A stretch of DNA of 52,169 nt from Clavulina sp. PMI_390 (Eukaryota > Basidiomycota > Agaricomycetes > Cantharellales > Hydnaceae): the NCBI GenBank assembly GCA_015039315.1, contig WIDE01000143.1, positions 1 to 52,169 of the forward strand, in the 5' to 3' direction. Position numbers and translations under genes: made by a program. Below the pieces are notes generated by a model. It worked only from the letters and a program-made list of their open reading frames with translations, made no database searches and was not told where the DNA came from. Position 1 is the first letter of the stretch. Each line of letters starts with the position of its first letter. Below are positions 117-38,697 of this stretch, in pieces.

Positions 117-2151
117 ATGCTTCCGAAAGGAGCCGCGTGTTTCCAGTGTCGCAAGCGTAAAGAGGTGCGAAGTTGACATGCTGGATTCGATCTATTCTCC
201 ATGTAACTACACCCCTTCACTGATACTTGATATCATGTCTTCCTGCTCCCTATCTATTTAGAAATGCGATGGCTTGAAGCCGTCCTGTTCTCGCTGCTGG
301 TGGGGTGGCACAGAATGTGTCTACGCCACTGGTATAGCAAGGCGACGACTCACAAACATGCTAGAAATTCGTGCGATGGAACTGGAGCAAATGATCCACA
401 AAATGACCATAATTTCTACGCATGAGTTATCTTTGGCATCTGCTAGACTATTAGCACGAATCAGGGGTTTAGGGGACGCAGCAGGTGTTAAACGGACATT
501 CATTGCGACTCATCACGAGTTGGCAGCGCCTAACTTTCTTCCCCAAAATGCTCTGTCTCAACATCAGTTGACCTCGTCTGACTGGGGGGAATTTGGTACG
601 CTACCGCTTGCATCCTCGCTGCACCTGTGGGTATCATCCTTATGAGGCTTGACGGACCGTTTGCTCATCACCATAAAATAGCATCAGCGTATTCCTACAG
701 CATCGCGAGCAATTTTATATTTTCATTGACGTTCCTGGCTTCATTAGCCGCGTTTCCCTTCCTCCCTCTCATCTAGAATCCATTCAACCTTGCCTATTGA
801 ACGCTTGCTACCTGGGAGCATGCTCCAAAGCTGGTGGGGAACTGAAACTCCTAGAACCCTACTTTCTTCGGCGTACTCGGCACTTCCTTGACCAGGCCCT
901 TATGTTTGTGGACCGCATCACCGACTTCCTACGAGCCAGTCTCATCCTGGGGTGTTACCTTGCAAGAAAGCAGCGAATGAAGGAATGCTTCAGCATCCTC
1001 GGTGCCGCTACGCAACTTGCATCGGCCTGCGGCCTAAGCAAAGCTAATGGAACTAGCGACTCCGATCCGGCTCAATATCTCCTCCCCCAAGCCAAAGATG
1101 CGGCGGAAGCCGTAGATAGGATTCGGCTTGCGCACTCATTCTATCTTATGGACCATATGTCACCTGTACTAGGAGGACCCGCCTCTTCATTTCCTTATGA
1201 TGGCCGATGGGTCATGACAGTAAAGGATGCTTCAATCAATTATCAATATAGCGAGGTAAGCATTGTTACTCAAATACTCTCGGCTTTCGTTGGTTCTCAC
1301 TAATTGTATAGGGAACGGCCCTGGACGAGAAGCATCTCTCAGAGCTTTGGCGTTCCCATGGGCACCTCAAAGTTGCCTTAGCGAGAACGTTAGATCAAGT
1401 GATGAGCTTTGCTCGATCCTGTCATGGTATGGCACCTTACATTGTATTCGATCTTTCACCTTAATAGCCTTGCTTCTCATTAGAGAGGGGATCCAATGGT
1501 TCCGACCATGAATATACTATGTTGGCGGCACAAATCAGCTCCCAGTGCACCGCGCTCCCTCCATTATGCGACGCACAGGGTCATCGGTCTCAAGAAGATG
1601 AGGGGGCCTTTAAACCCGATATGCTTCCCGCTTACATGGCCATGCATGGAAACGGATTGCTTTTGCACACAGTATATGCCAGCAAGGACCCTGAGGCAAG
1701 GAGGCAGATGCTCAAGTGTATAGATGCGATTTTTGGACTCTGCGAGACCATCCAGAGGCACGGGCTCCTTCGCGGGGTGCAATCCTGCTTGCTAATTGCG
1801 GTACCTGGCGCTCCTTACCTCTCCACCTCTATGCAAGCTAACTTCGTATCTGTAGATGCATATGATGAATGCTACCCGGGTAGTCGCTCATGAATTACAG
1901 CGATCTGAAGCAAAGGCGAATGCAAGGCTTTCGACCAACTATTGCAACCTAATAGACCTATTCCTTGACATCATTGACGATATAACCTTACTGAGCCCAA
2001 CCTTGGGTACGTATCCGATACTATACAGGTTCAGGTCCCGTATATGGCTGATACTTCTTTCCGGTTGTGGGTCTTTCGCCTAGCTGATTCTCCATTGCTA
2101 CTCAAAGACTCCCTCACGGCCGCAGTGAACTCGTTGATAACTACCTACTAG
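117..2151 (+). CDS. TF1: Zn2Cys6 fungal transcription factor, array copy 1
   Basis: Predicted nuclear DNA-binding regulator of the fungal Zn(2)Cys(6) class. Seven exons fit: 117-164, 262-626, 682-1255, 1312-1426, 1484-1800, 1856-2006 and 2084-2151, giving 545 residues. The zinc cluster uses Cys 8, 11, 18, 25, 28 and 35 (spacing C-x2-C-x6-C-x6-C-x2-C-x6-C), and intron 1 falls just before the third Cys codon pair. A helix rich in Leu/Glu (about residues 50-85) is a likely dimerisation coiled coil. Residues of about 140-330 match the fungal-specific TF (middle homology) domain, with the family block LNACYLGACS and the F-L-D-Q-A-L-M-F helix. The start at 117 is chosen because it aligns with the short exon 1 of the other copies. 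This copy lacks the WLPIYP-like block found in exon 2 of several paralogues. Target genes cannot be inferred. Confidence 0.9.
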
Positions 2152-2743
2152 TATCCCTAAGCCATTTCATCGCGCACTTGAGCCACCCAACCTCCACAAT
2201 CCAAACCATACGCACTTCCCCACCGTACGGTTCCATTAATTTTCTTCTCACTCTGCTCCTACTTGGTTCATCGAACATCGAAAAATCCTAGCATCTGTTC
2301 CGGGTCTACATTCTCATCCTCCTAGAACCTCCCTTGCGGCTTCCGCCGTCAAACATTGTAGAATCGAATAGTAATATCACGAAAAAATGTCCCATGTATA
2401 AGTTGGGCTTCCGTCGGAATGACAAGATTTCACTTTGTATCAGAACCTGACCCAAAGAGGGAGGCTAGCAACGCACAAACGCATCAGGAGACCGCGTTGG
2501 CTTACTATAATCGCAGAATATAGGGTACCAATTGTCCTCAGTTCCTCATTCATCTTATCAATCAGCCGCGACTAACAGCCGGCGTTCGATGACGCGAGGC
2601 CGAAGATACTCAAATCCAATAAATTGACATTGTGACGGCTTGGCCCTGTTCAAGCGACGAGTTCCTGGTGTGACAACCTCTGAGTTTCTCATATCGATCC
2701 GTTTCAGCACTAGACTCTTGAGTACCATCTAACTCGAGTCATT
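2152..2743. other. Intergenic TF1-TF2
   Basis: 592 bases that should hold the TF1 3' end and the TF2 promoter. No coding frame, RNA gene or clear repeat seen. Confidence 0.5.
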
Positions 2744-4814
2744 ATGGAGATGATCGCTAAGGGGGCCGCATGTTTCCGGTGTCGTAAGCGCAAACGGGTG
2801 CGAATACACTCCCCTACCTTACTCTGTTGTCTGTCCACTATGCAACCTCATTGGCTGACCCTCACCTTGCTTCCTCTCACTCATTCAGAGATGCGATGGC
2901 TTAAAGCCGATCTGTTTGCGCTGCCGGGAGTGCCACGAAGAGTGTGTTTACCCTGCTGGAATAGCTCGACGACAAACACAGATGGACGTTTTAGAAGCTC
3001 GTGCCCTAGAGCTGGAGAGAAGGATCCACAAGCTGATCCTTGGTTCCGCACACGACCTACCCTTAGTTTCTGCCAAACTCTTGGCCCGAATAAAGGGCTT
3101 GAAGAATGTCGTCGACCAAAGGCAATCACAAGCTCGAACCCATCCTACTGTGTCTCCGCAAGAATACTGCCTTCCATCTCACAAAGTTTTGATCCGCCAC
3201 CAACTGATTTCTTATGAGTGGCTTGGGTTTGGCGATCTCCCCGCTGCAACATCACGCCATCTGTGAGTGGCATCTCTTGTAGGTTGTAGAACCGTTCATT
3301 GACCGATTTATGACAGAATCGACCTACTCCTACCGCATTGGCCTCACTTTTGTTTTTTCATTGATCTTCACAAGTTCCTTGAATGCGTCAACCTTCCTCC
3401 CCCACATCCGGACTCGATCCACCCTTGCTTGCTGAACGCTTGCTACCTCGCTGCTTGCTCTAGAAGCGAAGGGGAGTTGACCTCCCTTGAGCCTTACTTT
3501 CTTCGTCGTACTCGGCACTTTCTTGATCAGGCTCTCATGTTTGCAGACCGAATCACACACTTCCTATGGGCCAGCGTTATTTTGGGCTGCTATTTTGCCA
3601 TGAAACGACGCTTAGAAGAATGCTTTTCAGTTACAGGCGCCGCTACACACCTTGCGTTTGCCTGTGGGCTCAGCGCCCCCCAAGGTCCCGAGGCCGATGG
3701 GACTGACGGGCGTGACCAGACAGCCCACCTTCTATCTCTACCCAAGGACGAGGCAGAAACCCTGGATCGAATCAGGCTTGCCCATGCAATTTTCCTCATG
3801 GATCATCTTGTGCCCGTCTTGGGTGGGCCCCCATCTTCGTTCCCTTTTGATCCTCGCTGGACGATGACTCCAAAAGAAGCTTCGCTCAGATATCAATATG
3901 ATGGGGTAGGGTTGATGCATTGCAATGTCACACTTCTGCGCCATTTTTCATTCATTTCATAGGGGTTAACTGTCGGGGAGAGACAAATGTCGGAACTTTG
4001 GCGCTCCGAGGTGCATTTCAAAGTTCTCTTGACCAGAACAACTGAACGAACCATAGGTTTCGCTCAATACTCTTATGGCATGGAACCCGCATTTTCTTAG
4101 TTGCACAATCGAGCCTAACTACTTTTCCTTATATCTAGAGGGCAGCAGTCAGGGAATTGACGATGAGTACAGCAAGTTGGAAGCGCAGATCAACTCCCAA
4201 CACACCATGATTGCTCCCTTATCGGATACGGTGAAGCTACGATCCCAAGGGCCTCTAAGCACCTTCAACGGCCTAGTTCTTGCCGCCCATATAGCCATGT
4301 ACACAAACGGGATACTTTTACATGCTGTACGGGCTGGTAAGGACTCAGAGGCAAGGATAGGCATGCTCAAGTGTGTCGATGCGGTATTGAGCATCTGCGA
4401 GACGATACGAGAGTATCGACGTTTCCAAAAGGTGGAATATGGTTTAGTAGTCGCAGTGAGTAACCGGTTTTCCTTTCATCCTAAATTGAAGCTACAGGTT
4501 ATACGATTATAGGCGTACATGTTAATTGTCATTCGAGGGGTCGCCCGCGAATTACAACACTCTGAAGCGAGAAGAAACACGGGGGCTTCGACAAACCACT
4601 GCTACGCAATACATCTGTTCCTGGACGTGATTGAAGACATCACTTCATCAAGCCCAGCATGGGGTAAGTTGCTCGCGCGCGGCTGGTAGTCTACCGTTGG
4701 CTGATGCTGCTATGTTCACCATGATCGACTCTACACTTAGCCGACACTCCTTTGCTTCTCAACGACACCCTCATGGCCGCAGTCAACTCCATAATGCTAC
4801 CCACTACTCCTTAA
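2744..4814 (+). CDS. TF2: Zn2Cys6 fungal transcription factor, array copy 2
   Basis: Second intact copy in the same orientation as TF1. Exons: 2744-2797, 2889-3262, 3317-3905, 3963-4077, 4139-4455, 4513-4663 and 4741-4814, giving 557 residues. Zinc-cluster Cys are at 10, 13, 20, 27, 30 and 37, with an extra Cys at 33. Exon lengths 3-6 (589, 115, 317, 151) equal those of most paralogues, which supports the model. The donor of intron 4 at 4078 reads GCATGG where TF1 has GTATGG at the homologous site, so this is either a GC-AG intron or a weakened splice site. The middle homology domain is complete, with blocks LNACYLAACS and ITHFLWASVILGCYF. Exon 6 is diverged: the usual H-M-M-N-A-V block reads Y-M-L-I-V-I. 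Function by family: sequence-specific regulator; target unknown. Confidence 0.87.
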
Positions 4815-5021
4815 TGAATCAATCTTATTATGCTAGGCTACCGGACCTCGCGTTAGGCTAATATGGGAGCGCTACATGGTGCGGCAGTAACTACAAATAG
4901 TGCCTAAGCTACCTTTATGGCTCCCCCGCATATTCAAAAGTATTCACCACGCGGCGGCGGTCTCTACGCGAAGAAATAATGAGGCAACGTAAGCTTCGGA
5001 CTGAACGCCTCTTGTTCCAAT

Positions 5022-5684
5022 GGGCTCAACTGTAGGAGAAGGGCAGTTATCCGAGCTCTGAGAGTCAGATTCATACTTCAAGGTCTCGATGGCAAGGGAA
5101 TATCAGCGGGTATTAAGGTTTTCTCGATCCGCTTATGGTATAATGCGTCAAAACCTGGGCGCCAGGATTCTCTATGCATATGCTTACCACTCGAACCACA
5201 CATAGCACGGAACTATTGTAGCTTTGGCCAGGAATATGCTGAAATGCGTGGAGACGTTGGATGTATGCAAAAGTGTGCAGGCAAACAAACGCTTGCAAAG
5301 AGGCCAGGCAGGTATGATGAACGTCGTAAGCATCTCAATTCTATTCCTATCTTCATCCTCTCACTCCATATCTGAAGACCCACATGATGAATGCTGTCCG
5401 GGTCGTCTCTCATGAAGTACAGCGCCCTGACGCAAGAGGAAACGCCAGGATGTCTGCGGACTATTGTTCTGCAATTGATGTGTATCTCGACTTCATTGAA
5501 GATATTTGCTCGTCAAGCCCAGCGTGGGGTGAGTATCATACTAACACGTTATGTCTGCTATGACTCATAGTATGAGCTGATACCAGTCTCTCCCTTTCCG
5601 CGGATTTCTCCGAGTCCCGCAGCCAGGACTCCTGCGTTACTGAAAGATGCGCTCGTAGCTGCAGTCAATGGACCGATTACGTAG
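5022..5684 (+). pseudogene. TF3: truncated Zn2Cys6 transcription-factor pseudogene
   Basis: This matches only exons 4-7 of the neighbouring regulators. Exon 4 (about 5023-5137) reads in frame as G-Q-L-S-E-L and then TGA where intact copies have the conserved Trp codon TGG. The acceptor before it is also lost. Only the second half of exon 5 remains (about 5220-5328, block M-L-K-C-V-E-T-L-D-V-C). Exon 6 (about 5391-5529, block HMMNAVRVVSHE) and exon 7 (to the TAG at 5682) are well kept, with usable GTGAGT and AG splice sites between them. The zinc cluster and most of the middle homology domain are absent, so it cannot encode a regulator. It lies about 200 bases downstream of TF2 on the same strand and looks like a decayed tandem duplicate. 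Confidence 0.85.
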
Positions 5685-6110
5685 AGCATAGCTGAGGGGC
5701 TTCATCATGTCTCTGAAGTGACGACTGTGATTGCACTAAATTATCCGGGAGTGTGTCGAGTATTCAACCCTCTCAATAAGACGCTTTGTCAAGGACGATT
5801 TTTCCTTCCCTATTCTCTATTTCCATCTCCTCAAAATCGGTTGACTAATCATAGCTTGCGGATACGATGGTAGACTACGACAAGTCAGAATAACTGAATG
5901 ATATTAACCCAACGTTGTATGTACCCAAAGACTAATACAGGTGTTTTAACTTCTTGGTGCATCACGAAGTAGGGGGTGATATGATATGATTCTCGTAATA
6001 CATGTGGCTGGAGGTTTCTTGTGGAAAATAAATCAACGATTGAGCGGGAGTAAGAATATGTGCAAACAAGCGTGCGGATATGGATCAAGGCATGGCTTGG
6101 AGAGTATAGC
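5685..6110. other. Convergent junction of the two halves of the array
   Basis: 426 bases between the 3' end of TF3 (+) and the 3' end of TF4 (-). No gene seen. This is where gene orientation switches, so it is the likely site of an old inversion or of inverted duplication. Confidence 0.5.
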
Positions 6111-8273
6111 TTAGGCCATGAGTGAGCTTGCTGCAGCACTGAGTGGAGCTTTGAGTAAGAGAGGTGTTTTGGCTAGTAGCGAAAGCACATCAGACAGCCG
6201 CACGGTAGTATTACGTGGATACAACTTACTCCAGGCTGGGTTCAGCAAAGTGATGTCGTCGATGAAATCGAGTAGCAACTCTATAGCATAGCAATTGCTG
6301 GTGGAGACCCTGGCATTTCCTTTCCGACCTGAACGCTGCAGTTCACGAGCGACTATTCGGACAGCATTCATCATATGAGCCTACCAATATGGTAAAATGA
6401 GCGTTTGGAAGAGATCCCCAACACCATTAATAAGCTGCTTACTGCATTTAATAGACCCGACTGGACCCTCCGAAGACGCTTGTTGCCTCGCACGATCTCG
6501 CACACATCCAGTAGCCCTTCCACACACTGGAGCATCTTTCTCCTTGCTTCCACATCTTGATCTGCTCGTACGCTGTGCAGAATCATCCCACTTCCATATA
6601 TCGTGATATGTACTAGTAGCAGGTGGGGATTGAAGTTGCTGACGGCCTCGTGAGCCTGGAGCCCTGTTGGATCGGACAGTGGAGGAATACTCGATTGCTG
6701 AAAGCTAATCTGGGCCGCTAAGGCCGTGTACTCTTCATTGAGGATATTATAGCTTGTCCCTGGTGTTATGGAGATAAAGTTAGGATCGACCTATGACTGA
6801 GACTGTTCAAGAAATTCGTACCAGAGGCGGCGGAGCGAGCAAAGTTCATCACCCGTTCAAAGGTTCTTGCCATTATGACTTTGAGGTGCGTGTCTGAACG
6901 CCAGAACTTTGAAAGTTGTTCTTCGTTCACAAGTGAGGTCTGGTGGGACAAGATGAGTCTTTTGAAGGCTGAGGGAGCCCAGATGCGTTGGAGAACATAC
7001 CTCGCCATACCGATATCTAACTGCAGCTTCTCTTGGAGATAAAGCCCATCGCTCATCGTAAGGAAATGAAGGTTGAGATCCGCATAGGAGTGTCAGTGTC
7101 TGATCCATGAGGTAGAGTGAGTGCGCGAGTTGTATTCTTTCCATCAAACCAGTTGCATCCTTGAGTTGAGGTAGTAGGTATCCTGGGCCGCTAGAGTCGC
7201 TCTTCCCATCCACATTCGGCTTGAAAGGTGCGGTTAGACCACACGCAAAGCCGAAACGGGTAGCGGCGCCAGCAACCGCGAAGCATTCTTGGGACCGCAG
7301 TTCTCTGGCGAAAAAGCATCCCATCGCAACACTAGCCCATAGAAAGTGATTGATTCGGTCTGCAAACATGAGCGATTGTTCGAGGAAATGGCGAGTGCGT
7401 CGAATGAAGTGAGGCTGGAGGGAGGCAAGCAAGCCTCCGCCGCCAGCACAGGCACCGAGGTAACAGGCATTCAATAGGCAAGGGTGGATGGCATCTGGGT
7501 CTGATGGGGGAAGGGAAACACAGTGGAGAAAGTGGGGAACATCAATGAAGAAATAAAACTGGGCGCGATATGGGAGGAACAGATTGATTCTATGACGAGA
7601 GGGCCAATGAAGTAGTTAGCAAGATATTAATTTAGGATCTGTACGGTGATAGAGACGTACAGATGGAGCGATAATTGAGGTGATAACTCCTCTAGCCCTG
7701 TCCACTGATACGAGTTGAGCTGGTGCTCGACCAAGGCTCTTGGTACCACAGAGTTATACCCCTCTGCATTATCTTCGCCTACAATTCGGCCCCCCTGTGG
7801 ACCTGTTTCGTTCTGTTTAGGTTGAGGATATATCGGTAGCCAGGTCGTGTCGAGGGTGGCGGCGATCTGCTTGGGGCGAACAACATCACCCAAGCGGCCG
7901 ATGCGCTCCAGGAGCCTCCCTGACGCCAGGGAGAGATCGTGGGCTGAGGCGAGCATCATCTTGTGAATCTGCAGTTCCAATTCCATTGCCCGAGCTTCTA
8001 GAGCTTCCGTGATTGGACCACGCCGAATAAGACTGCCAGGATATACACATTCTTTGCGACGCTGCTTGCAGCGAGAGCATGTTGGTTTCAGACCATCACA
8101 TTTCTATACCAAGATGAGGTACATTCAGGCGGTGAATTCAACGAATGACACATAGAGAAGTAATATGAGTGGGGAACAGGGCAGAAATATGAAGGGGGAG
8201 GACATGACGTTGCTCGCACCATTTTGAGCTGGCGACACCCCGAGCATGCAGCCCCTTTGGCGAGCATGCTCAT
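6111..8273 (-). CDS. TF4: Zn2Cys6 fungal transcription factor, array copy 4
   Basis: First of eight copies on the - strand. Exons in reading order: 8220-8273, 7661-8103, 7001-7589, 6822-6939, 6443-6759, 6230-6380 and 6111-6172, giving 577 residues. Zinc-cluster Cys are at 10, 13, 20, 27, 30 and 37. The start at 8273 gives exon 1 the 54-base length shared by most copies; an in-frame ATG at 8300 would add nine residues. Exon 2 encodes the coiled-coil helix and the WLPIYP linker block. Exon 3 encodes most of the middle homology domain (LNACYLGACA, NHFLWASVAMGCFF). The basic stretch after Cys13 (R-Q-L-K-M-K) is less basic than in its relatives, so DNA contact may differ. All splice sites are GT-AG. 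Confidence 0.9.
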
Positions 8274-9068
8274 AGTGCCTTCCGCAGTGAGGTTCGACAT
8301 CGCTGCAGTACAGAAATATCAGCTAGCATTGTTACATGGGATCGCGTGGTAAATTGCCTCGATGTCGGTGGCAGTACTAGACGCCCGGCGCGCGGCCCAA
8401 TGTTGCCGCGCCTTTGCCTTTCTGAATTGCACCGGCACTACGGGTTGTGCATTCTATTGCTTTCTCTACAGCATTTACGTCTTGAACCTGCCGAGCGAGT
8501 GGGAATCCGAGCCCTTGCTCTTCAGGTGGCTGGTACGAGCCGCAATTTCGGAGCAAATATTCCTGATAGTCTCTAATAGTGTACTGCCTGATTTGCAAGG
8601 CACCCAAATCCAATCTGTCCGAGAACGAAAGTTCTACTGAGAATGAACACCAAAGGAGCATGATATCGACCGCTCAACCCTCGTCGTCAGGCAATGGACC
8701 GCCCCAACATCGGGTAACTGGTCTTGGTTCGGCCAACGGATGGGCCGAATGGGAAAGGGGCGAAATTATCCGAACTTCAGCTGTCCTATCACTATCAGAT
8801 GACAAGAGGGACATTATCCAAGTGGGAGAGTAGATCCAATATTAAGGCATTCATTCGATAGTCATAAGAACATCCGAAAGAGACGAGACGAATGTAGATT
8901 TTCTCTTCCTTCCCAATCGAACGGCGCAATCCCCCGCGGTCGATTGCGAGATCGCAAAACCAAGGGAAGAACCAACTGAATATTGACATTGGTATGAGAT
9001 ACAGGCCATGTTTGGGAACAAATCGCAGAAACAAACTTCTGGAGAGCTGCAAGTGGCCGGTGACTGAT
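8274..9068. other. Intergenic TF4-TF5
   Basis: 795 bases: promoter side of TF4 and 3' flank of TF5. Small open frames occur but none has family similarity or splice support. Bases of about 9005-9068 are nearly repeated at about 11763-11819, as part of the TF5/TF6 duplication. Confidence 0.5.
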
Positions 9069-11219
9069 TTAGGCAACAAGTGGAGTGACAGCATCCATCA
9101 GAAGATCCTTGACTAACGCAGTCGTCCCAGCTGCAGAAGAGCCAATGCGAAAAGAAAGAGAATCAAATGTTAGACTCGGGGCTCTGTGACAAGTGAAATG
9201 ATACGCACTCCACGCGGGATTGAAAAGTATCAAATCGTCAATAAAGTCGAGGAATAGCTCGATAACATAACAGTCATTAATCAAGAGTCTGATATTCTCT
9301 CGTTGTGCGCCATTTTGTCGGAGTTCATGAGCAACAACTCGTACGGCATTCATCATGTGAATCTGGAGGAATGGGAATAAGCTGCTTGAACGACTTGCAG
9401 AAGTGAAAGGCCATCTTACTCCATTCATCATGCCCGCTTGCACCCTGTGGAGACGCTTGGTCCCTCGGACTTTCTCGCACACATTCACCAGGGCCCGCAC
9501 GCAATGGATCAGTCTTCCCTTGGCCCCCATATCTCGTTCAGCGGGCAAGTTGTGCAGAACAAGTCCACTCCCATATAGCATCATATGGGCAAGAAGCATA
9601 TTTGGGTTGAACGTACTGACTCCTTCCATAGGTTGGAGCCCGCGAGTATCGGATAGTGGAGGAATATTGGACTGTTGGAAGTCAAGATGAGCCGAAAGCA
9701 CCATGTATTCTGCGTCAGAGCCACGTTTGCCGATCACTGGACATGATCAAATGTGGTCAACAGAGAGTGGGTCAGCAGGCAGAGATGGTGTGATAACTCG
9801 TACCACAGGCGAGCCGGGCAAATGTTGTCACTCGGTCCAAGGTTCGTGCCATGGAGACCTTGAGATACAACTCTGAACGCCAAAGGTTAGAGAGACGCTC
9901 TTCGCTAATGAGCGAGCCCTATGCGTTGAATTTCTCAATAATGCGCCATGGCGATGAGGTATTGAAGTTACCTTGCCATAAGGGTACGCGAGGGAAGCTT
10001 CTTTTGGACCCAATTCCCAGCGAGCGTCGTAAGGAAACGACGAAGGTGCTCCACCCAGAATGGGGGTCGTTATATCCATGAGGTAGATCGATTGAGCAAG
10101 CCGAATCCTATCCACGGCTTCTACCTCATTCCTGGGCTCTGGGAGGAGGAATCCAGTGGTACCAAAGTCATTCGTCACGATAGTCCTAGGATCTAGAGGT
10201 AGGACAAGACCACATGCGATCGCGAAGCGGGATGCAGCGCTGGCAACTGTAAAGCACTCTTCTAGCCTTCGTGTCCTGATGAAATAGCACCCCAGGACGA
10301 GGCTAGCCCATAGGAAATGGGTAATCCGGTCTGCAAACATCAAGGCTTGGTCCAAGAAATATCGAGTGCGCTTAACAAAATAGGGCTCCAACGAAGCCAA
10401 AATGCCTCCGCTACTACTGCAGCCAGCAAGGTAGCAAGCATTCAACAGGCAAGGGTGAATGGAATCAGGGTCAGAGGTGGGAAGGGAGGCGCAGTGAAGG
10501 AAGTGGGAAACATCCATGAAGAAATAATAGTGCGAGCGATATGGCAAGAAGAGTTTAATTCTGGAGCGGAAGAGTCGCCAATGAAGAACTTGTCAAGTTC
10601 AGCTCTAGAATAATAGCGAAAGCTCCTACAGTTGGAGCGATAGCAGCGGTGGCACATGCGGCTCATCTAGTCTTGCCCACGAATGTGAGGTCACTTGGAG
10701 CTCCACCATGGCCCTAGAAACCACTGAGGTATACCCTTCAGTACTATCTTGACTTAATATTTGGCCTCGCGACGGTCCAGCTTCGCCTTGTTGAGGATAC
10801 GGGAATATGGGGAGCCACGCTGTATCGACTGTGACCGATCGCTGCGCTGGGCGAATAATATCCACATCATCAAGGTGCCCTATCCGGTCTAATAGTTTGG
10901 TTGAAGCCAATTGAAGGTCGTGCGTGGAGGTAAGTGCAAGCCTATGAAGATTTGTCTCCAGTTGCAGAGCGCGAGCCTCCAGAGTCTCCAAGACCGATGC
11001 ACGCCGATTGACTCTCTTAGCAGGATAAACGCATTCCCTGTGATGGTGCTGGCAGCGAGAGCAGGTTGGTTTCAAACCATCACATTTCTGCACGAGAACG
11101 AAAGGGAATAAGTTTCAATTGGTCAAGGAGTTTGGCAGATGACAAAACCCAAGTGGAGTTAGCACACGTGCCTGTTTGCTATCACGACATCGAACGCAGG
11201 CCGAACTCAGGGCTGGCAT
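9069..11219 (-). CDS. TF5: Zn2Cys6 fungal transcription factor, array copy 5
   Basis: Exons in reading order: 11172-11219, 10630-11087, 9972-10560, 9804-9918, 9420-9736, 9209-9362 and 9069-9130, giving 580 residues. The N-terminus M-P-A-L-S-S-A-C differs from the usual M-S-V-L-A-K-G; cluster Cys are at 8, 11, 18, 25, 28 and 35. Intron 1 appears to use a GC donor (GCACGT at 11171 downward), because only that site keeps the x6 spacing between Cys11 and Cys18. The middle homology domain is complete (LNACYLAGCS, ITHFLWASLVLGCYF). Introns 5 (57 bases) and 6 (78 bases) are multiples of three and free of stops, so the 3' half stays open even if they are retained. TF6 is its closest relative by eye. 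Target unknown. Confidence 0.88.
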
Positions 11220-11480: not shown

Positions 11481-11819
11481 AACTTGCCCCTAACACTCAT
11501 GCCGGATAGTACTGTAAGAAATCACACAAACTATGTGTCTTCACATGATGCCCACAGCTTACTTCGCCCTATTGATATTTGTGGGAAGCTTTCTTGCGAG
11601 TCGGTGCCCATGAGGGATCATAAGGAAACGAAGTCGAAGCTCTGCATGTCATTGTTTTTCTTTCCTGATCAAAGAGTACAACCCTGCACAATCGGCTACT
11701 GGATCCTAAGACCGGCGGAAAATGGACTTAATCATTTATATGGCTATAGGATACGCGCCAGGTTTAGGAACGAATTGCGGAAACGAACATTGGGGGGCTG
11801 TAAGTGACCGATGACTGAT
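11220..11819. other. Intergenic TF5-TF6
   Basis: 600 bases made of the TF5 promoter copy (to about 11480), a scrap of a further regulator gene (11553-11643, listed separately), and the 3' flank of TF6 (from about 11763), which repeats the TF5 3' flank. No intact gene. Confidence 0.6.
11553..11643 (-). pseudogene. Relic of a Zn2Cys6 regulator: exon 3/intron 3 fragment
   Basis: About 90 bases that align closely with TF8 at about 18287-18376. They include the intron-3 donor region, the Y-Q-Y-G-E end of exon 3, and the F-V-S-L-S-L/S-F-P-Y-D coding stretch before it (shared run GGGATCATAAGGAAACGAAG). No other part of a gene is recognisable around it. It sits between the two TF5/TF6 duplication units, so it is probably left from an extra copy lost or cut up by unequal recombination. 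Confidence 0.7.
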
Positions 11820-14580: not shown

Positions 14581-16726
14581 TTAGGTGGCAAGCGAATTCA
14601 AGGCGGTGGTGAGCGTCTCCTTGAGCAGCACAGGAGTCTCAGCTAGATAGGAAAACCGAGATAGGGGATAAGATTAAGTCAACTGATTGATCTTCGCCGC
14701 GCCGGTTCTAGGTCGGACCCTTGGGGAAAGACTTACCCCAGGCGGGGAACAGTACCACTACTTCTTCGATGAAGTCTAGGAGCGATTCAATATAATTGCA
14801 CTTGGTGGTCGAGAGCTTCGAGTTCCCTCTCGTTTCGGAATGTTGAAGCTCGCGAGCAAGGACACGAATGGCATTCATCATATGGACCTATCGACATCAG
14901 CTGGGTGAATGGTTTTGATCTTCTGAGAGGAATATGGACACGGACCAAGTTCACGAAACCTGTTTGAACCTTGCGGGGGCGCTCCTGGGCTCTTACATGT
15001 TGGGATATTTCAACCAGGGCTTGAAGACACTGATACATCCTGCGTCTTGCCTCCATGTCATCGCCCGCCCGCACGCTGTGCATAAGCAACCCAATACCCA
15101 ACAAAAATGGATTGACCAAAAGCATATTGGGCTTGGCGATGTTAGCGTGTCCTGACGACTGAGGCTGAGGTGCGTCCGATGAACGAGCGATAGCAGATTG
15201 CTGATCACTAATCTGAACCTCCAAGGCACCGTATTCGTCATTGAGGTACTGGTAGCTCGTTTCTGGTTGTATTCAGCAGTAGTCAGTGCACAATGCGGGA
15301 GGGGACAAGTGAGAGCTCATACCACTAGGATCCCGTGCGAAATCGGTCACTCGATCAAACATCCGTGCTATCGAGACCTTGAGATGCAAGTCCGAGTTCC
15401 ACAGCTTTGACAGGTGTTCCTCGCTGACAACCGATCCCTTTATAGCCGTTGAGCGTGTAGGAAAAGCTGGAGTATCGCATTGAAACATAAAACCGACCTT
15501 GCCATATGGATACTCCAAATTACCCTCTGTTGGGTTTGATGCCCAACGAGGGTCGTACGGAAACGAAGGTGGGCATCCGCCCACAAGGGGTGCCGTCTGA
15601 TCCATAAGATACAGCGCATTCGCAAGCTGTATCCTATTTATTGCTTCGGCCTCATCCTTGGGCGGAGCAAGCAGGTACCTAGTGTCGTCGGGCTCATTGG
15701 GTTTGCCAGCATTGTTATCCTGAGAGCAGAGACCACATGCAAACGCAAATCGAATGGCTGAGCCCGCAACCACGAAGCACTCTTGTAGCCGTCGTTCTCT
15801 TGCAAAGTAGCAGCCAAGGATGACGCTCGCCCATAGAAAGTGGGTGATGCGGTCAGCAAACATGAGGGATTGCTCCAAGAAATGTCGAGTGCGTTGGATG
15901 AAGTATGGTTCCAGGAAGGCCAACGTGCCTCCGCTGCTAGCGCATGCAGCAAGGTAGCATGCATTGAGCAGGCAAGGGTGTATGGAGTCAGGATGCGAAG
16001 AAGGAAGGGAGAGGCAGCGGAGGAAGTAGGATGCATCAATGAAGAAATAAAATTGCACCCGATAGGGTAAGAACATGTTGATCCTATCGGTGGAAGGTCA
16101 ATAGAATGTTGAATGCAAGGGGACTATTACGCACAGGTGGAGCGACGTCGGGAGTGGTAGTTCGCCAAGCCCAGCCCACTCATATGAGACCAGCTGGTTC
16201 TCAACCAGCGCCTTCTGGATATCGGATGTGGGACGATCAAGTAGCTTCTCCACGGCAATCTGTCCACCTAGTCGTTTCCCCTCACCATATTGGGAGATAG
16301 GATAAACTGGTAGCCAAACCGTTTCCACTGCCAAGTGCTTTGGGTTAACAGCGACATCGCCAAGACGCCCAATCCGCTCTAGGAGTCTCGCGGATACGAG
16401 AGAGAGATCGTGCTCGGAAGCCATCGTTAACTTGTGGATGCTGAGTTCTAATTCCAGAACTCGAGCTTCCAGAGCTTCTAACATTGGGGCACGTTTGGGT
16501 GGATAGACGCATTGCTCGTTACGATCTTCGCACCGAGAGCAAATGGGTTTCCTTGCGTCGCATTTCTATGGGACATAGATGGAAGATGTGAATAAAGGTC
16601 TCGAAAGAAAATTGGCATGCATTAGCAATGCGGAGAGACCATGCTCGTGCCAGTGAGCAATGTACCACACACCTCTTTGCGCTTATGACATCGAAAACAC
16701 GCGGCTCCTTTAGCAAGAACACTCAT
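14581..16726 (-). CDS. TF7: Zn2Cys6 fungal transcription factor, array copy 7
   Basis: Exons in reading order: 16673-16726, 16135-16565, 15498-16083, 15323-15437, 14946-15262, 14737-14887 and 14581-14642, giving 571 residues. Cluster Cys are at 10, 13, 20, 27, 30 and 37. The usual C-D-G-L-K-P loop reads C-D-A-R-K-P, a change in the DNA-contact region. The donors of intron 3 (GTCGGT) and intron 5 (GTCCGT) are unlike the GTAAGT/GTGAGT-type donors of other copies. Intron 3 is 60 bases, in frame and stop-free, so its retention would add 20 residues between the middle homology domain and the following helix. The domain is otherwise complete (LNACYLAACA, ITHFLWASVILGCYF). Confidence 0.88.
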
Positions 16727-17365: not shown

Positions 17366-19590
17366 TCACTTAACCGGCTGGGAAGTTTTCGAGACGAGTG
17401 GGGTCACTGCGGCAGTGAGTGCATCTTTGAGCAATAGAGGGGTTTCAGCTGCAAGAAGAATCCAATGCGAATCACGGGATGAGTGTCTAGTCAGATTTCA
17501 ATATGCTGCAAACAACAAAACACTTACTCCATGCAGGGTTCAGCATCGTTACATCATCGAGAAAGTCGAGGAACACCTCAATGGCATGGCAATTGCTTGT
17601 CAGGAGCTTCGCATTTCGTCCTCGAGCCCCTGATCGCTTTAGTTCATGTGCAACAACCCGGACGGCATTCATCATATGAGCCTGACAAGCACAGCGTCAG
17701 CTAATTGAAGGCTGTGATGGACGAGAGACAGAACACGTACTGCATTCATCAGACCCGACTGCACCTTGCGAAGGCGCTTGTTCCCTCGAACCTTTTGGCA
17801 CACGTCCATCAGCGACTCCACGCAGTAACGCAATCTCTTCCTAGCCTCCGAGTCTTTGTCGGCCTGCAGGCTATGCAGAATGAGCCCGCTCCCATAAAGT
17901 GTGATGTGAACAAGAAGTAGGTTTGGGTTGAACATGCCAACAGCTTCCGATGATTGAAGCCCGACTGGGTCAGATAGTGGGGGGATTGCAGAGTGCTCAG
18001 AGTCGAGGTGAACCTTGAGGCTACTGTACTCTTCGTCAAGCTCGCGGTAGCCAGCCCCTATATATAATTTTAGTTAGTTAGCAAAGCTTCGCACCACATA
18101 AATAGGATGAGAAGTCATACCAGAGGCGTGCCGAGCTAGGGCCGTTACACGATCAAAGTTTCTGGCCATCGACACTTTGAGGTGCATGTCTGAATGCCAG
18201 ATCTCCGATAATCGCTCTTCTCTCACACTCATACCCTATCGCACTGGTAAGAACTTGCAGAGAATTGGAGCGTTTTTATGAAGTGCACAGCTTACCTCGC
18301 CATATTGGTATTTGTGAGAAGCTTTTTTGGGGGTTGAAGCCCACGAGGGATCATAAGGAAACGAAGTCGACACTCCGCCCAATATTGGCGCCGTTTGATC
18401 CAGAAGATACAACGAGTGCGCGAGCCTAATCCTGTTGATTGCTTCAGTCTCATCTTTGGGGGGCGGAAGAAGGTATCCGGCAACATCGAAATCCTTCGTT
18501 CCATTGAACGTGGGATCCCCGGACGGACTCAGGCCACACGCATAGGCGAAGTGAGTCGCGGCATTTGCAACCGCAAAAGATTCATCTAACCTGCGGGCCT
18601 TTGCGAAATAGCACGTCAATATAATGCTTGCCCAGAGAAAGTGGGTGATGCGGTCCGCATGCTTTAGCGATTGGTCGAGGAAATACCGAGTGCGCCGGAT
18701 GAAGTAGGGCTCCAAGGAGGTCAAGGTGCCTCCACTGCTAGCACAAGCGCCCAGATAACAAGCATTCAATAAGCAAGGGTGGATGGCGTCAGGGTGGGAA
18801 GGGGGGAGGGAGACGCAGTGAAGCAAGTGTGGGACATCCATGAAGAAGTAATAGTGCGCGCGATACGGCAAGAATAGCGAGACTCTGTGGCGGAATGAAC
18901 AAAGGGTGTTAATATTCCTTTCATATTTCGATCCAGGGTCATAGTGGATGGTACCCACAGCTGAAGCGACAACGAGGGTGGCGCATCTCGCTCACCCAGT
19001 TTTCCCCACTGAAACGAGTGCAGTTTCTGCTCCACTACAGATCTCTCGATAATAGACGCATAGCCCTCCGTAACATCCTGACTAACAATTTGTCCTCGTT
19101 TTTGCTCAGTTTTGCGGTGTTGAGAGTAGGGGTATATCGGTAGCCAAGCCGTCGCGGTCGAGACCAATGGATGCTTGGCGGGAACAGCATTCCCTAGTCG
19201 TCCAATGCGATCCAGTAGCCTGGCGGACGCCAGAGATAGGTCATGCGTGGAAGCAACTGTCAACTTGTGAATGATCATTTCCAGCTCCAAAGCTCGAGCT
19301 TGAAGGGTTCCCGAGATCGGCGCACGCCTTGCGATGCCTGTAGGATAAATGCACTCGTTGGGGCGTTTCCGACAGCGAGTGCAGGTGGGCTTCAAGCCAT
19401 CACATTTCTATAGAAAGGAAGAAATAAGGAACATTTTAGAGGTTTAGTTCTTCAAGTGGAGTGGAAGAACAGAAGGCATGGTCGACCGAGAAGACGACGG
19501 AACCCCCAGCTTGTCAAGGAGGGGCTGATCACACACCTCTTTGAGCTTTCGACACCGCAGACACGCGGCTCCTTTGGCAAGTACGCTCAT
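17366..19590 (-). CDS. TF8: Zn2Cys6 fungal transcription factor, array copy 8
   Basis: Exons in reading order: 19537-19590, 18959-19407, 18296-18884, 18121-18235, 17741-18057, 17528-17681 and 17366-17448, giving 586 residues, the longest copy. The start is M-S-V-L-A-K-G, with cluster Cys at 10, 13, 20, 27, 30 and 37. The linker contains WLPIYP and the T-E-G-Y-A-S block. Exon 3 encodes LFLPYRAHYYFF, LNACYLGACA and the Y-L-L-P-P-P-K-D-E loop. The extra C-terminal length comes from a shifted stop that adds S-K-T-S-Q-P-V-K. All introns are GT-AG with good donors (GTAAGC, GTACGT, GTAAGT), making this the best reference copy for the family. The relic at 11553-11643 resembles this gene most. Confidence 0.91.
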
Positions 19591-20154: not shown

Positions 20155-22232
20155 TTAAGCTGGGGTGGCAAGTGGAGTGATGGCTGCAATCAAGGTATCC
20201 CTGAGCAATAGGGATATGCCAGCTATAGGCAACCCGCAAAGGTGAAAGATAGCAGGTGATATCAGCTCGTCGATCAATAGACAAGGGGCAGCGAGCTACA
20301 AGGATGAGACTCACTCCACGCGGGAAACAGCAACACAACCTCTTCAATGAAGTCAAGGAACAATTCAATGTCACGACAATTCCTCGCCGAGAGCTGAACA
20401 TTTTTCCTCGTCTCGGGCCGCCGAAGGTCGCTAGCTATGACGCGAATAGCGTTCACCATATGGACCTGGATGCACGACATGAGCCGAGCAAACACGCAGT
20501 CCTGAAGAAAAGTGTACGCACCAAGTTTACGTACCCTATCCGCACTTTATGAATGTGCTGGTGAGCTCTGATATCCTCGCAGATGTACACGAGCGCTTGA
20601 ACACATCGAAGCATGTCCCTTCTCGCGTTGACATCGTTTTCCGCACGCGCACTGTGCAAGATCAACCCGCTCCCATATAAGGTAGTGTGCACCAGAAGTA
20701 GGTCCGGTCTTGAGGGCCCAGGTCCATCGGCTACGGAAGCTCGACCTCGAGAGAGGCCAGAGAGTGGAGGGATTCTTGATTGATGCAGGACTATCTGGTC
20801 TGATAGGTCGGTATACTCGTCAAGCGAATATTTGTCATGCTCTAGAGTGACCTCGAGTCAGCCGGGGGTTTTGCTACCGACAATAGAAAAAGAACGTGTA
20901 CCGTGTACAGATCGATAGAAGTTGGTCACCCTTTCAAACGTTCTTGCCATCGATACATTTACATATGTCGTGTGCTTATGCTTTGATTGCTGCTTTTCGT
21001 TCGAGACCGAGTCCTGTGAAAACGGTCAGAATCTCGTATGACGAACATGCTATGGGATTCGGTTGAACCCACTTGGTCGTTTTGGTGCCCAGGGGAAGGT
21101 TCATTCGTGATAGATGCCCACCGTTCATCGTAAGGGAACGAGGGAACATACTTCCCAAGAACAGGAAGTGTTTGATCGAGGAGGTAGAGAGAGTGCGCGA
21201 CTCGGATCCTGTCGATCATCTCGGCCTCGTCTTTGGGAGGAGGGAGGATGTAGGCGGCGTTGTCAAGGTCATCGATTCCATGCGCATTCCGAACGTTAGG
21301 AACGCATAGGCCACACGCAACTGCAAAACGGCCAGCAGCACCAACGACAGCAAAGGATTCTTCTAGTCGCCTCTCCTGCGCCAAGAAACAGCCAAATATA
21401 ATTGAGGCCCACAGGAAGTGTGTGATACGGTCACTAAGCATGAGAGCTTGCTGAAGAAAGTAACGAGTGCGGTGGAGGAAGTACGGCTTGAGAACCGCCA
21501 GTTCGCCCTGATTGCTAGCACATGCAGCGAGGTAGCAGGCATTCAATAAGCAAGGGTGGAGGGATTCAGGGTGCGAAGGCGGACGGGCGGCGCAGTGAAG
21601 GAAATAAGGAACGTCAACGAAGAAATAATAATGCTCGCGGTGTGGTATGAACAGGTCAATGCTACGCCGAAACGGTTAATGAAGTAGAACGAGGCTCGCT
21701 CTTGGAGGAATCGTACATACATGTCGAGAGAGGATCGCATTGGTAGTGCATCCAACCCAGCCCATTGATGAGGGTTGACATTGTACTCGACTACCGTTGT
21801 GCTGGCCAAAGCGGACGCCTGCAAATTTCGGACGGTGTCCCCCAAGTTTCTGATCCGCTTCAAAAGTTTATCGGATGCCCGATTAAGATCGTACGCAGAA
21901 CCGAGCGTCAGCTTGTGGATCATAATCTCCAGCTCCAGGGCACGAGCTTCCAGAACCTCGGTCAGCGGTCGACGTCTAGCGATACCGGTGGGATAAGCAC
22001 ATTCTTTGTAGAGGGATTTGCAGCGAGAGCATATAGGTTTTGCGGCATCGCATTTCTACCGAGACAAGGTAGAACCAATACAGCAGTCAGTTACGAGTAG
22101 GAGGATGCAGCGATTGATAGTGAACGTCGGCGAAAATCCGATTATCTGAGTCGCAAGCACAGTTGACGAAACACGCACTTCTTTGTGCTTACGACACCGA
22201 AAACACGCAGCTCCTTTAGCAAGCACGCTCAT
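20155..22232 (-). CDS. TF9: Zn2Cys6 fungal transcription factor, array copy 9
   Basis: Exons in reading order: 22179-22232, 21721-22055, 21073-21661, 20902-21013, 20522-20841, 20315-20465 and 20155-20222, giving 542 residues, the shortest intact copy. Exon 2 is about 100 bases shorter than in TF4-TF8, because the WLPIYP/T-E-G-Y linker is missing while the coiled-coil helix (L-E-A-R-A-L-E-L-E-I) is kept. Cluster Cys are at 10, 13, 20, 27, 30 and 37, with C-D-A-A-K-P in the loop. In exon 4 the family motif H-L-S-E-L-W-R-S is replaced by a Lys/His/Gln-rich stretch. The exon 5 acceptor is taken at TCTAG just before 20841, which gives the expected phase. The frame is open throughout, so it may be functional but diverging. 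Confidence 0.85.
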
Positions 22233-23005: not shown

Positions 23006-25174
23006 CTAGAGGCCAGACTGGGTGGTGATTGGAGTTAATGCAGAGATGAGGGTGTCTTTCAGTACTCTTGGGGAGTTAGCTGGATTAGCATGGGCAATAA
23101 CAAATGATATTCGTCCGATCGGTCAATCCCGAGACAGTCTGCGGAAGCTATAATTTGCAGGGGACTCACACCATGCAGGAAATAGCACTACGACGTCGTC
23201 AATGAAGTCGAGGAGCGTCCCAATGTTATTGCAGTAGTTGACTAGGACCTTGGTGTTCGTTCTTGTGTCAGACCGCTGTAGTTCGCGAGCGATGACACGC
23301 AGTGCATTGAGGATGTGGACCTACATTCAGTGCATTGGTGAGTGATGCGAATCATCCACAGCAATATGGAAATATACCAAATTAGCGAAGCCTATCTGCA
23401 CTCTTCCGGAGTTCCTGTGAGTTCGAGTATACCTGCAAATATCCACCAGCGCCTGGACACAATGAAGCAAATTTCTTCTTGCCTCAATATCAGTCCCGGC
23501 GCGCACGCTGTATAGAATTAGGCCACTTCCATATGGGGTGGTGTGTTCAAAAATGTTGTCGGTTTTCAAGGCGCTCATATTCCCTGGAGCTGGTGACCGA
23601 CGCGCACTGGACAAGGGAGGTATTATGAGCTGTAAGTTGTCCATCTGTGCCGTGATGTCACCATATTCTTCCAAGGAGCTGGAACGGCCTTGCCCTGATG
23701 GGAATGCGAATAGTCAGGAATGGTTTGTTTGAGTGAGAGTATAGAGCATTCATACCAAGGGAACCTTGAGCAAATATAGCTACCCTCTCGAAGACCCTTG
23801 CCATTGAAATCCTAAAGTCCGTCCGTGAGTGTTGAAGCTCCAATGTGGGTTCATCCATCTCGATCGAGTTCTATAGGCCGAGGAGTAAAGTTAACAGAAA
23901 CCCGAAGTATCCTGAACGTGGTTGAACGTGCCTGGCTGCTTCTAGGCACGAGAGGTACCTCTGGGGCTGGCCCCCAGCGGTTATTATAAGGAAACGACGG
24001 TACGTAGTTGCCAAGAGCGGGTAGAGTTTGGTCCAATAGGTAGAGACAATGTGCAAGTCGTGTTCTGTCGATTGCCTCGGCGTCATCCTGGGGTGGAGGG
24101 AGGAGATATGCGGCAGTGTCTGGTTCCTCACTTCCACTTGCATGGGAATCGTGAGGAAGCGCTAGGCCGCATGCATAACCAAAGCGGGTTGCTGCGCCTG
24201 CGGTGGCGAAGCATTCCTCTAAACGTCTTTCTTGGGCGAAGAAGCCGGCCAATATGACAGAGGCCCATAGAAAGTCGGTGATACGATCACAAAACATAAG
24301 GGCCTGTTCCATGAAATGCCGGGTGCGCTGAAGGAAATATGGTTGGAAGAATGCCAAATTGCCTCTGTTGCAGGCGCAAGCAGCGAGGTAGCACGCATTC
24401 AGCAAGCAAGGGTGTATAGACTCGGGATCGGACGGAGAAAGGGAGACGCGATGTAGGAAGTGGGGAAGGTCAATGAAGAAATAATATTGCGCGCGGAATG
24501 GCAAGAGCAGGTGTACGCTGTGTCGGGGCTGTGGATCAGCAGTAGCAATCATTATCGCTAAAGAAAGGATCGTACAGGTAGAGTGACGATGGTAGTGGGA
24601 GCGGCTCGTATCCAGTGGACAGAGAAGAGTCCATGTGAGCCTCAATTATATGTTTCCGAATCACGGAAATATAGCTTTGAGTGATTTCGTCACCCCTTAT
24701 CAGCGCTCCTCTTGAACCAGTCCCCATTCTATCAGGACGAAGAAGCACTTCTGGGCGAGAGATATCCCCCAAACGTGCAATTCGTTTTAGAAGTCCGGCA
24801 GACACCAGAGAAAGATCATGCATCGATGCAAGCGTTAACTTATTGACTATTATCTCCAGCTCCAGAGCGCGAGCTTCCAAAACGTTTGTCGCTGATCTGA
24901 ATCTTCGTCTAGCTACGCCAGTGGGATAAAAGCATGTTTCGTGCCGGGATTGGCAGCGAAAACAGGAAGGTTTTGTACCGTCACATTTCTATGGGATCAA
25001 TGTAGAGTAGAACGTCCATTTCGGTCGAACCAATGATTAGACGAAGGCACCCCGAAGTAGTGAGTGGATAAGAAAGAGAATCATGTGAAAATGAAGCGAC
25101 ATAAACGGGGATGAACGCACCTCTTTGAGTTTACGACATCGGAAGCAGGCTGCCCCTTTGGCAAGAACGTTCAT
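23006..25174 (-). CDS. TF10: Zn2Cys6 fungal transcription factor, array copy 10
   Basis: Exons in reading order: 25121-25174, 24576-24988, 23932-24517, 23756-23870, 23378-23694, 23170-23320 and 23006-23079, giving 569 residues. Cluster Cys are at 10, 13, 20, 27, 30 and 37 (C-D-G-T-K-P loop). The usual V-Y-P after the cluster is F-Y-P. Exon 3 must end at 23932 to match its relatives, so the donor is GCACGT: a GC-AG intron, as in TF5 and TF6 but at intron 3. The tail of exon 3 (R-W-G-P-A-P-E-V-P-L) and exon 4 (M-D-E-P-T-L-E-L-Q-H) are diverged from the family motifs. The middle homology core is intact (LNACYLAACA, ITDFLWASVILAGFF). Probably a functional but fast-changing paralogue. Confidence 0.84.
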
Positions 25175-25825
25175 AACGAATTGGACTAAGCCTCGGGGCC
25201 GGGTGGAAGTGGAGAGAATGAGCGGGGGGCGTTGGAGGTGTTCATATCTTATAAGAAGTACGCCGAGTGGGTCGCCGCTACTGTTGCCGAGTTATGAGAG
25301 CACTGGGGCCACATGGGCCCCAGTTCGTCGCGTTGCCAAGGTGGGTGTCGCGCGGGAGGACGAATCCCTTGAATACCTTAGCCCCAGCCCGCAGATCAGG
25401 TCTCATATACGTGGCCGATTGACTCAAACGGAACAAGGGCCGCGAGGCCAAGAAGAACAGTGCCCCGCTCTTCAATGCGTAGCTCTCTGGGTCGTTTGAT
25501 CGAAAATCACCTGCAACGTTATCTTCTTATTGCGGCACCACGGTGTTCGCAGGCGTCGGCTCTCAGGCTGGCCCCGCCCGAGGAGTTGAGCCAGTGCATC
25601 TTTAACGTCTTAGGCGTTTGGTGGTAGCTGGCCTATAGGGTTCGTACTATACAGGAAAGCAGCGCAGCTCATCTACGCTTAATACCATTCCTGTTCGCGT
25701 ACGGCGAGATTTGTCAGATAGACAAACATACATTAGAGTCATTGAGTTGCCAAATTAGTCATCGATCCACAAGTTCCAATCGGGTGTCCTGCCCGTGTAC
25801 CGAAAAAGGGACGCAACAAAATAGC
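25175..25825. other. Intergenic TF10-TF11
   Basis: 651 bases between the TF10 start and the TF11 stop, somewhat GC-rich in the first half. No gene or repeat recognised. Confidence 0.45.
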
Positions 25826-27968
25826 CTACGTGGTAAGCGTGCTTACGGCGGCGGTGAGGGTGTCTTTGAGCAAGACCGGGGTATCAGCTACAGAGCAACG
25901 GATAAAACGAGTAACCGTATCAGCTCGGGGATCTGGCGAGATCAAGGCAGCAAGTGGAACAATACTTACTCCATGCTGGGAATAAAAGTGTTGTGTCATC
26001 AATAAAGTCCAGAAGCAATTCAATAGTGTGGCAGTAGTTCGTCGATAACCTGGCATTTCCTCTCACGTCGGGTTTTTTGAGTTCGCGAGCAAAGACTCGG
26101 ATGGCGTTCATTACATGAACCTACAATAAAGGATAAGTTTCTTGAACCAACCGGAAGCATGGGACAAGGTGCCTACAACGTTCACTAAACCTGCTTGCAC
26201 CTTGCGAAGGCGTTTATGGCCTCTGACATGCTCGCAGATTCCAACCAGTGCTTGTGCACACTCGAGCATCTTGAACCTTGCCTCTGGGTCATCTCCCGAT
26301 CGCACGCTATGTAGGATCAGTCCGCTCCCATATAGTGTAGTGTGCGCGAGAAGTAGGTGGGGGTTGAAGGTGCTGACGGCTTCAAGCGGCCGAAGCCCTC
26401 GTGGATCAGATAATGGAGGGATTGATATCTCATGGATGTAGAGTTTTGTTCTCAGGCGAACATACTCATCCTCGAAGCCATGAAAACCGTTTTCTAAGCA
26501 AAAGGTAGGCGGTCAGCAGTTACAGGAGTAAAGTTGAAGATGGCGAATATCTCATACCATGGACAGACCGAGCGAACTTGGACGCCTGGTCAAACATCCT
26601 CATTATGGAAACTTTCAGATGCATATCTGATTGCCACAATTCCGACAAATGGTTTTCCATTGATCCGTTTTTTGAGAACTATACGTCCCGCGGAAGTGTA
26701 ACATGTTAGATCTGTAGTGAGCTCGGGGATGAATACAAACCTTAGAACTTTGGTACCGAGGCAACGCTTCCTCGGGCGTGAGTGACCAACGATGATCGTA
26801 AGGGAATATAGGCAGATGTCCCCCAAGCACAGGGGCGGTTTGATCTGTCATATAAATCGCCTGGGCAAGTCTGATTCGATCCATCACCTCGATATCATCT
26901 TTGGGAGGGGGTAGTAGAGATATACCGTTGCGGGAATTCTGACCTCCCATCGAGCTTTGTGGGGAAATCAGACCAAAGGCAGATGCCAAGTGGGTAGCCG
27001 CCCCAGCTACTGCGAAGCATTCATCTAGCCGTCGCTCCCTCGCTAGGAAGCAACTTAAGATGATGCTAGCCCACAAAAAATGGGTGATGCGGTCTGTGAA
27101 CATGAGCGCCTGGTCAAGGAAGTGACGAGTGCGCTTAATGAAGTATGGCTGGAGCAAAGTCAAACCTCCTCTGCTGCTACCACAAGCACATAGATAGCAG
27201 GCATTCAACAGGCAGGGGTGTATGGAGTCGGGATGGGAGGAGGGGAGAGTGACGCAATGGAGGAAGCGGGGCACATCGACAAAAAAATAATAGTGTGATC
27301 GATAAGGTAGGAAAAGGCTAATTCTATAGGGTTGAAAGGGAGCGGTTAGCCTCTGCCAGAACAGCACGAACAACGCACATACAGGTGGAGCGAGAGAGGC
27401 AGCGGTAGTTCTTCCGACCCCACCAACTTGTACGAATTCAGTTTGTGCTCAACTAAGGCTCTCTGAACGACAGATGTGTAGCCTTCCGTGACATCCGCGC
27501 CGACAATTTGTCCACCTTGCCATCCGGGACCGTGTTTTTCAGGAAGAGGGTATATTGGCAGCCAGGGCGTACCACTAGTCGCGGACAGCAGCTCTGGTTC
27601 AACGCTACCCAAACGGCCGATCCTCCTCTGGAGCTTGGTAGAAGCCAATAAAAGGTCATGGGCAGAGGCGATGGTCAATTTGTGAACTACGGTTTGCAAT
27701 TGATCGGCTCGTGCTTGCAGACTCCCCAGAATTGGCCCGCGTTTACGAGCCGTGATTCCGGAGGCATAAACGCATTCTTGGCGATGATACCGGCAGCGAG
27801 TGCACGCTGGCCTTAAGCCGTTGCATTTCTTAAAGTTGAGAACACCAAGAACGGCGAGAGTATCAGGACTGAAACGATGGGTGCGAGAAAGGAGAGGTCG
27901 GATGAAGCACTTACTTCCTTGAGCCTACGACAGCGTAAACATGCGTATCCTTTTGGGAGTACGTCCAT
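25826..27968 (-). CDS. TF11: Zn2Cys6 fungal transcription factor, array copy 11
   Basis: Last copy of the array. Exons in reading order: 27915-27968, 27383-27828, 26741-27323, 26558-26678, 26177-26493, 25970-26120 and 25826-25887, giving 577 residues. Cluster Cys are at 10, 13, 20, 27, 30 and 37, but the loop reads C-N-G-L-R-P, with Asn for the usual Asp. After the cluster the I-A-R-R linker is I-T-A-R-K-R. The coiled-coil segment is changed (L-Q-A-R-A-D-Q-L-Q-T), so it may pair differently from the others. Exon 4 is six bases longer (F-S-K-N-G-S start) and exon 3 six bases shorter than the family norm. The middle homology domain is otherwise typical (LNACYLCACG, ITHFLWASIILSCFL). Confidence 0.88.
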
Positions 27969-38535: not shown

Positions 38536-38697
38536 TCTTCACGAATATTCCCAGATTTATTTCAATTATCTTTCCATCACTGCTGATCTGGTCAGCCTAA
38601 TTCATTGTTATTCATTGTTAGTCATGTCAACTGATAACGTGTCGATCCCACACACCCATCCGACAGGGGGTGTCAAGACAAAGAAGGAAATAGACCT

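Follow-up and report, generated by a model that had tools for sequence, protein, structure and literature searches.

We analyzed a 52,169-nucleotide stretch of Clavulina sp. PMI_390 DNA (contig WIDE01000143.1), here called the window. From the start of the contig, positions 117–27968 carry ten seven-exon genes for zinc-cluster (Zn2Cys6) transcription factors, g1 to g10, and one 5′-truncated pseudogene. The family protein of g6 was spliced by hand, placed along the window by tblastn and aligned with our own splice-aware aligner; in a second round, database proteins were used as templates. Both rounds returned the ten genes at the positions first proposed, and the truncated eleventh unit was recovered in the first round where the original prediction had put a pseudogene. 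Ten intact regulators and a pseudogene lying side by side were thus borne out by spliced alignment. Exon 3 of g6 was matched by the nine other copies with E values from 1.3e-85 to 7.2e-67, which is not a chance similarity.

The orientation of the array is mixed. The plus strand carries g1 (117–2151; 545 residues; 100% identical to NCBI protein P0014), g2 (2744–4814; about 552–561 residues; modelled by spliced alignment) and the pseudogene (5023–5684; also from spliced alignment), which lacks exons 1–3, retains only exons 4–7 and has two in-frame stops. The remaining genes, g3 to g10, lie on the minus strand. The start of g3 (6111–8300; 586 residues) is at 8300 according to NCBI P0002, or at 8273 according to the paralogues. 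The local duplicates g4 (9069–11219) and g5 (11820–13990) encode 580 residues each, NCBI P0086 (201 residues) covers only part of g5, and between the two lies an exon-3 relic of the family that contains a stop (11563–11676, minus strand; 66% identity with g7 in 38 residues). They are followed by g6 (14581–16726; 571 residues; NCBI P0001, 97%), the search query, whose best database match is a Clavulina sp. PMI_390 protein at 97% identity, g7 (17366–19590; 586 residues; NCBI P0003, 100%), g8 (20155–22232; 544 residues; from spliced alignment), g9 (23006–25174; 569 residues) and g10 (25826–27968; 577 residues). In every final model the stop codon is immediate or at most two codons past the aligned end. 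The units are 212–771 bp apart, and the eight reading frames of at least 100 residues inside or overlapping these gaps gave no Pfam match above cut-off and one sub-threshold match (E 0.063). The array starts at base 1 of the contig and may therefore be cut.

The closest window pair, g4 and g5, shares 80% protein identity, and apart from g6 itself nothing in the genome matches g6 at more than 66%; the window copies are thus too diverged to be alleles, and allelic duplication of the window was rejected. That allelic or collapsed copies were counted as an array is therefore extremely improbable, although one pair elsewhere would suit such an artefact: C264:2400–4700 and C86:40216–42511 are 98% identical over 2.3 kb. 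These may be allelic, belong to overlapping contigs or stem from a recent duplication, and at a guess one locus may have been counted twice.

Exon structure

With database templates, intron phases are 0-2-0-1-0-1 in nine of the ten window genes. Intron 4 of g2 is ambiguous (GC-AG and phase 1 in the first alignment, phase 2 with database templates), and the gene may not splice as modelled. A match at ≥96% identity was found for 41 of the retrieved database proteins, nine of them from the window; none of those retrieved matched g2 at this level. GC-AG borders occur in intron 4 of g2 and in intron 1 of g4 and g5, where most paralogues use GT-AG, and g9 has one GC donor in the model fitted to its NCBI protein and GT-AG in the first alignment.

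The standard phases recur in divergent subfamilies on other contigs, hence the seven-exon structure is ancestral. A shared exon structure was accordingly rejected as a means of dating or proving local duplication. Intron 1 interrupts the zinc cluster, so that intron-blind searches see the cluster only in part, which helps to explain why the family is missed by single-exon searches and by some database models. The NCBI proteins P0034 and P0041 (contig C277) lack PF00172, although the same genes, once spliced, start with the family zinc cluster.

Protein architecture

Pfam detects Zn_clus (PF00172) in g6 with 37.3 bits, and Fungal_trans below threshold (16.7 bits, with the cut-off at 23). The cluster cysteines are present in all 71 alignment rows that cover the cluster, and the full CX2CX6CX6CX2CX6C pattern in the 66 models counted as intact, for which the pattern is one criterion. 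Hardly any variation is seen in the zinc ligands or in the basic residues that precede the third cysteine: position 17 is lysine in 69 and arginine in 2 of the 71 rows, and position 19 is lysine in 58 and arginine in 13. We take both positions to be DNA contacts, as in Gal4. A structure model of g7 shows the zinc cluster, a predicted 39-residue helix at 49–87 and a Cep3-like, all-helical domain, for which Cep3 is the best fold match. The proteins have the zinc-cluster motif (CX2CX6CX5-16CX2CX6-8C) and the middle homology domain (MHD) of CeGAL (Zn2C6-MHD) regulators (PMC10141177).

From the invariant cysteines, the conservation of basic residues and the long helix, each protein would be expected to bind CGG half-sites as a dimer. 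The long-helix region (residues 41–80) is fairly conserved, with a mean pairwise identity of 0.42–0.47; of 71 rows, 69 have R56 and 70 have L60. This would suit a set of combinatorial partners in which conserved coiled coils pair freely and each paralogue multiplies the number of heterodimers, but a conserved helix is equally expected of homodimers, and we consider such a use quite unlikely.

A genome-wide family of tandem arrays

Three exon-3 queries from different subfamilies were searched against the genome, with the best 150 of 177, 177 and 178 candidates scored; every query matched at least 150 times. The union of the three lists comprises 155 family loci on 40 contigs, a count taken from these capped lists as they stand and including fragments. 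At a spacing limit of 6 kb, 118 of the 155 loci fall into 33 arrays and 37 stand alone. The largest array, on contig C277, has 20 loci, and the window comes next with 10. Of the 85 cases of neighbouring loci, 84 share a strand, against 3.6 such neighbours expected under random placement. The PF00172 profile gave 82 matches in the genome (best 150 of 195 candidates scored), 60 of them directly upstream of a family exon 3 and 22 elsewhere. The array had been called exceptional; within its own genome it is not, with 33 arrays and twice as many loci in a row on C277, and its unusual standing there was rejected.

In the quick tree of 99 proteins, the window genes fall into a clade of 19 with four genes from C52, four from C237 and one from C43 (Shimodaira–Hasegawa-like approximate likelihood ratio test, 99). 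The members had been expected to be each other's closest relatives, but in the careful tree of 26 rows half of them side with genes on other contigs: g1 and g2 with C52, where the nearest relatives of g1 lie (100/100), g8 and g9 with the four-gene C237 array (99/98), to which g9 is the adjoining sister (100/100), and g10 with a C43 gene (90/88). Forcing the ten window genes into one clade of this tree cost 334 log-likelihood units (approximately unbiased test, p 1.6e-55), and monophyly of the window members was rejected.

Physical and tree distances are correlated in the window (rho 0.44, p 0.0036), where the nearest in-array relative is the neighbour for five of the ten genes, in the 20-gene C277 array (rho 0.35, p 0.0014) and among seven C240 genes (rho 0.85, p 0.0006). 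Neighbours thus tend to be related, so that tandem duplication made the arrays, and the trees show that copies also moved between places. Of the earlier argument from a shared plan to repeated local duplication, the single domain plan, the seven exons and the tandem origin stand; the exon structure as its proof does not.

These data establish that (i) the window array belongs to a family hyperexpanded to about 150 genes for Gal4/Cep3-type transcription factors in Clavulina sp. PMI_390; and (ii) the family grew by same-strand tandem duplication together with the seeding of arrays on other contigs.

A further broken locus was found on C52 (46004–46545). Contig C50 begins, and C52 ends, within an array, and the two may be one array broken by assembly; no match of at least 80% joining them was found. 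Outside the 155-locus family, three same-strand PF00172 matches about 6–7 kb apart (C46:447102, 452863 and 459837) are perhaps a second small zinc-cluster array.

Age, selection and integrity of the copies

The ratio of nonsynonymous to synonymous substitution rates (dN/dS) was estimated by the Nei-Gojobori method, with our own script, for twelve pairs that we picked, mostly close relatives; the 98% identical C264/C86 pair was left out. The ratio was 0.11–0.33. The youngest pair has a dS of 0.30, and g4/g5 a dS of 0.68. In residues 96–160, dN is near or above dS in some pairs (0.29 vs. 0.16 for C237_188/195; 0.63 vs. 0.59 for g1/C52_39). The copies tested are old and under purifying selection. 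The suggestion of a rapidly turning-over family found no support in the twelve pairs (dS about 0.30 or more) and was rejected as far as they reach; the C264/C86 pair, unless allelic, would count as young.

Among 76 modelled loci, 66 are intact, defined as encoding 500 residues or more and the whole zinc cluster, without stops or frameshifts. The standard intron phases are found in 54 of the 66. In some C240 models the phases are odd, possibly from aligner errors. The ten remaining models comprise four with frameshifts or stops, three cut by the end of a contig or stretch, and three modelled unclearly. Three of the four damaged loci belong to the 20-locus C277 array.

Such damage, the pseudogene and relic in the window and the same-strand tandem layout are what a largely redundant expansion would leave, in which copies arise by unequal crossing-over and are kept by drift and partial subfunctionalization, their high number having no special use. 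The low dN/dS across old pairs and the 66 of 76 intact loci instead point to selection on most copies, and we regard redundancy as unlikely.

Confinement to one lineage and tandem arrays would suit an arms race, with the family as a fast-evolving fungal counterpart of the KRAB zinc-finger repressors of transposons. Rapid substitution at the residues that contact DNA would mark such a family, but the presumed contacts at positions 17 and 19 are conserved, and no young duplicates occur among the twelve pairs. This explanation, for which a link to transposons was sought solely through Pfam scans of window reading frames, is very unlikely.

Relatives outside Clavulina

In database searches that scored the best 7999 candidates by shared words, all 70 hits of the g6 protein came from Clavulina sp. 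PMI_390, and a full-length profile gave 79, of which 78 were from Clavulina and one from Crepidotus variabilis (E 4.7e-8, 23% identity). An exon-3 profile gave 18 hits, six of them without an organism name (P0071–P0073 and P0081–P0083). Hardly any relatives of the family were thus found outside Clavulina sp. PMI_390 in the protein database.

Upstream regions and surroundings of the array

CGG-N2-CCG ranked first among 1344 inverted dyads upstream of 70 models (20 sites vs. 6.2; p 7.5e-6, about 0.01 after correction). It was present in 19 of 70 upstream regions and in 12 of 158 control chunks from elsewhere in the fetched DNA (Fisher p 2e-4). The motif had first been spotted among 72 spacings in the same regions, so that the ranking is not an independent test. 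The sites have varied spacer letters, and among the window genes only g9 has one upstream (window position 25194). In an 8-mer scan of the upstream regions, no word passed the preset filter. The excess would fit cross-regulation within the family and is a weak lead only.

Right of the array, twenty reading frames, which are not gene models, were scanned with Pfam, and nothing there visibly pairs with the array. Two frames match above the Pfam cut-off: a partial FGGY_N carbohydrate kinase domain at 36088–36528 (minus strand, E 6.4e-10), and TPR repeats in a 1018-residue open frame at 45600–48653 (plus strand). Sub-threshold F-box-like and LRR_14 matches on the plus strand within 38638–43621 (frames 38638–40113, 42334–43221 and 43028–43621) are possibly another small tandem family adjoining the array, and an APH match is also sub-threshold.

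Discussion

The family resembles the CeGAL regulators Gal4 and Cep3 in its CX2CX6CX6CX2CX6C cluster, the long helix that follows it and the all-helical domain, whose closest fold is that of Cep3. It differs in being one subfamily with about 150 loci in a single genome, mostly in same-strand arrays, and in the sub-threshold Fungal_trans score of g6. Another multicopy fungal transcription factor gene, FTF1 of Fusarium oxysporum, encodes a zinc-cluster protein. FTF1 differs in belonging to the accessory genome and in being exclusive to highly virulent strains, as described in the cited part of PMC10054582. In a survey of more than 200 fungi, the passages cited here state that repertoires grow with genome size through few families, and that the largest single-species expansion comprises 27 genes (C2H2+homeodomain type), with others of 5–10 (Shelest, 2017; PMC5415576). 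One regulator type expanded in one species is common to both cases; the comparison is loose, since that survey counts whole DNA-binding-domain families and takes all zinc clusters as one. PMC6634985 names Clavulina and PMI390, and no description of a Clavulina zinc-cluster expansion was found in titles and abstract openings of the open-licence PubMed Central literature.

Nematode (supplementary) nuclear receptors are likewise a lineage-specific explosion of one regulator family, with 270 GR-like factors in C. elegans (PMC5415576) and hundreds of nhr genes in many nematodes (PMC10938818), according to the sections cited. They have another DNA-binding domain, and ligand control, which marks them, is hypothetical for the Clavulina family; for g6, Pfam reports Zn_clus and a weak Fungal_trans and nothing else. 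The likeness is one of analogy, not of membership. Taken to its full extent, the analogy would make the family a chemosensory network and a fungal counterpart of the nematode explosion: around 150 Zn2Cys6 receptors gated by ligands, which share a single half-site code, take many inputs and are cross-wired through CGG-N2-CCG sites in one another's promoters; we put this forward only tentatively and think it improbable.

As an explanation of the whole, we lean, with modest confidence, towards a lineage-specific Gal4/Cep3-type hyperexpansion that is kept by selection and serves as a repertoire of conditional sensors. Response to different inputs would be the simplest function for so many copies, and by analogy the members are most likely conditional sensors. 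The copies would differ in the input received by the variable linker and the helical domain, and together they could form a set of regulators for different conditions, such as the presence of compounds from plants, soil or microbes.

Several points weigh against such a sensor repertoire. The sensor step, with its putative ligands and target genes, rests on analogy. The Cep3 match is just modestly above the chance level of helical models, and Foldseek alone gave no match with E ≤0.001 for the structure model. The most variable region (about 97–140) has a low-confidence structure prediction, so its variation can be put down to drift as readily as to adaptation. Relatives elsewhere may also exist, given the 7999 candidates scored and the six nameless exon-3 hits.

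A single basidiomycete with a clade of about 150 zinc-cluster genes, most of them intact, would be strong evidence that regulators can expand in bursts in fungi. The role of the MHD is largely elusive, as the cited text of PMC10141177 puts it, and the Clavulina family provides a ready-made set of paralogues with which the function of this domain could be studied.

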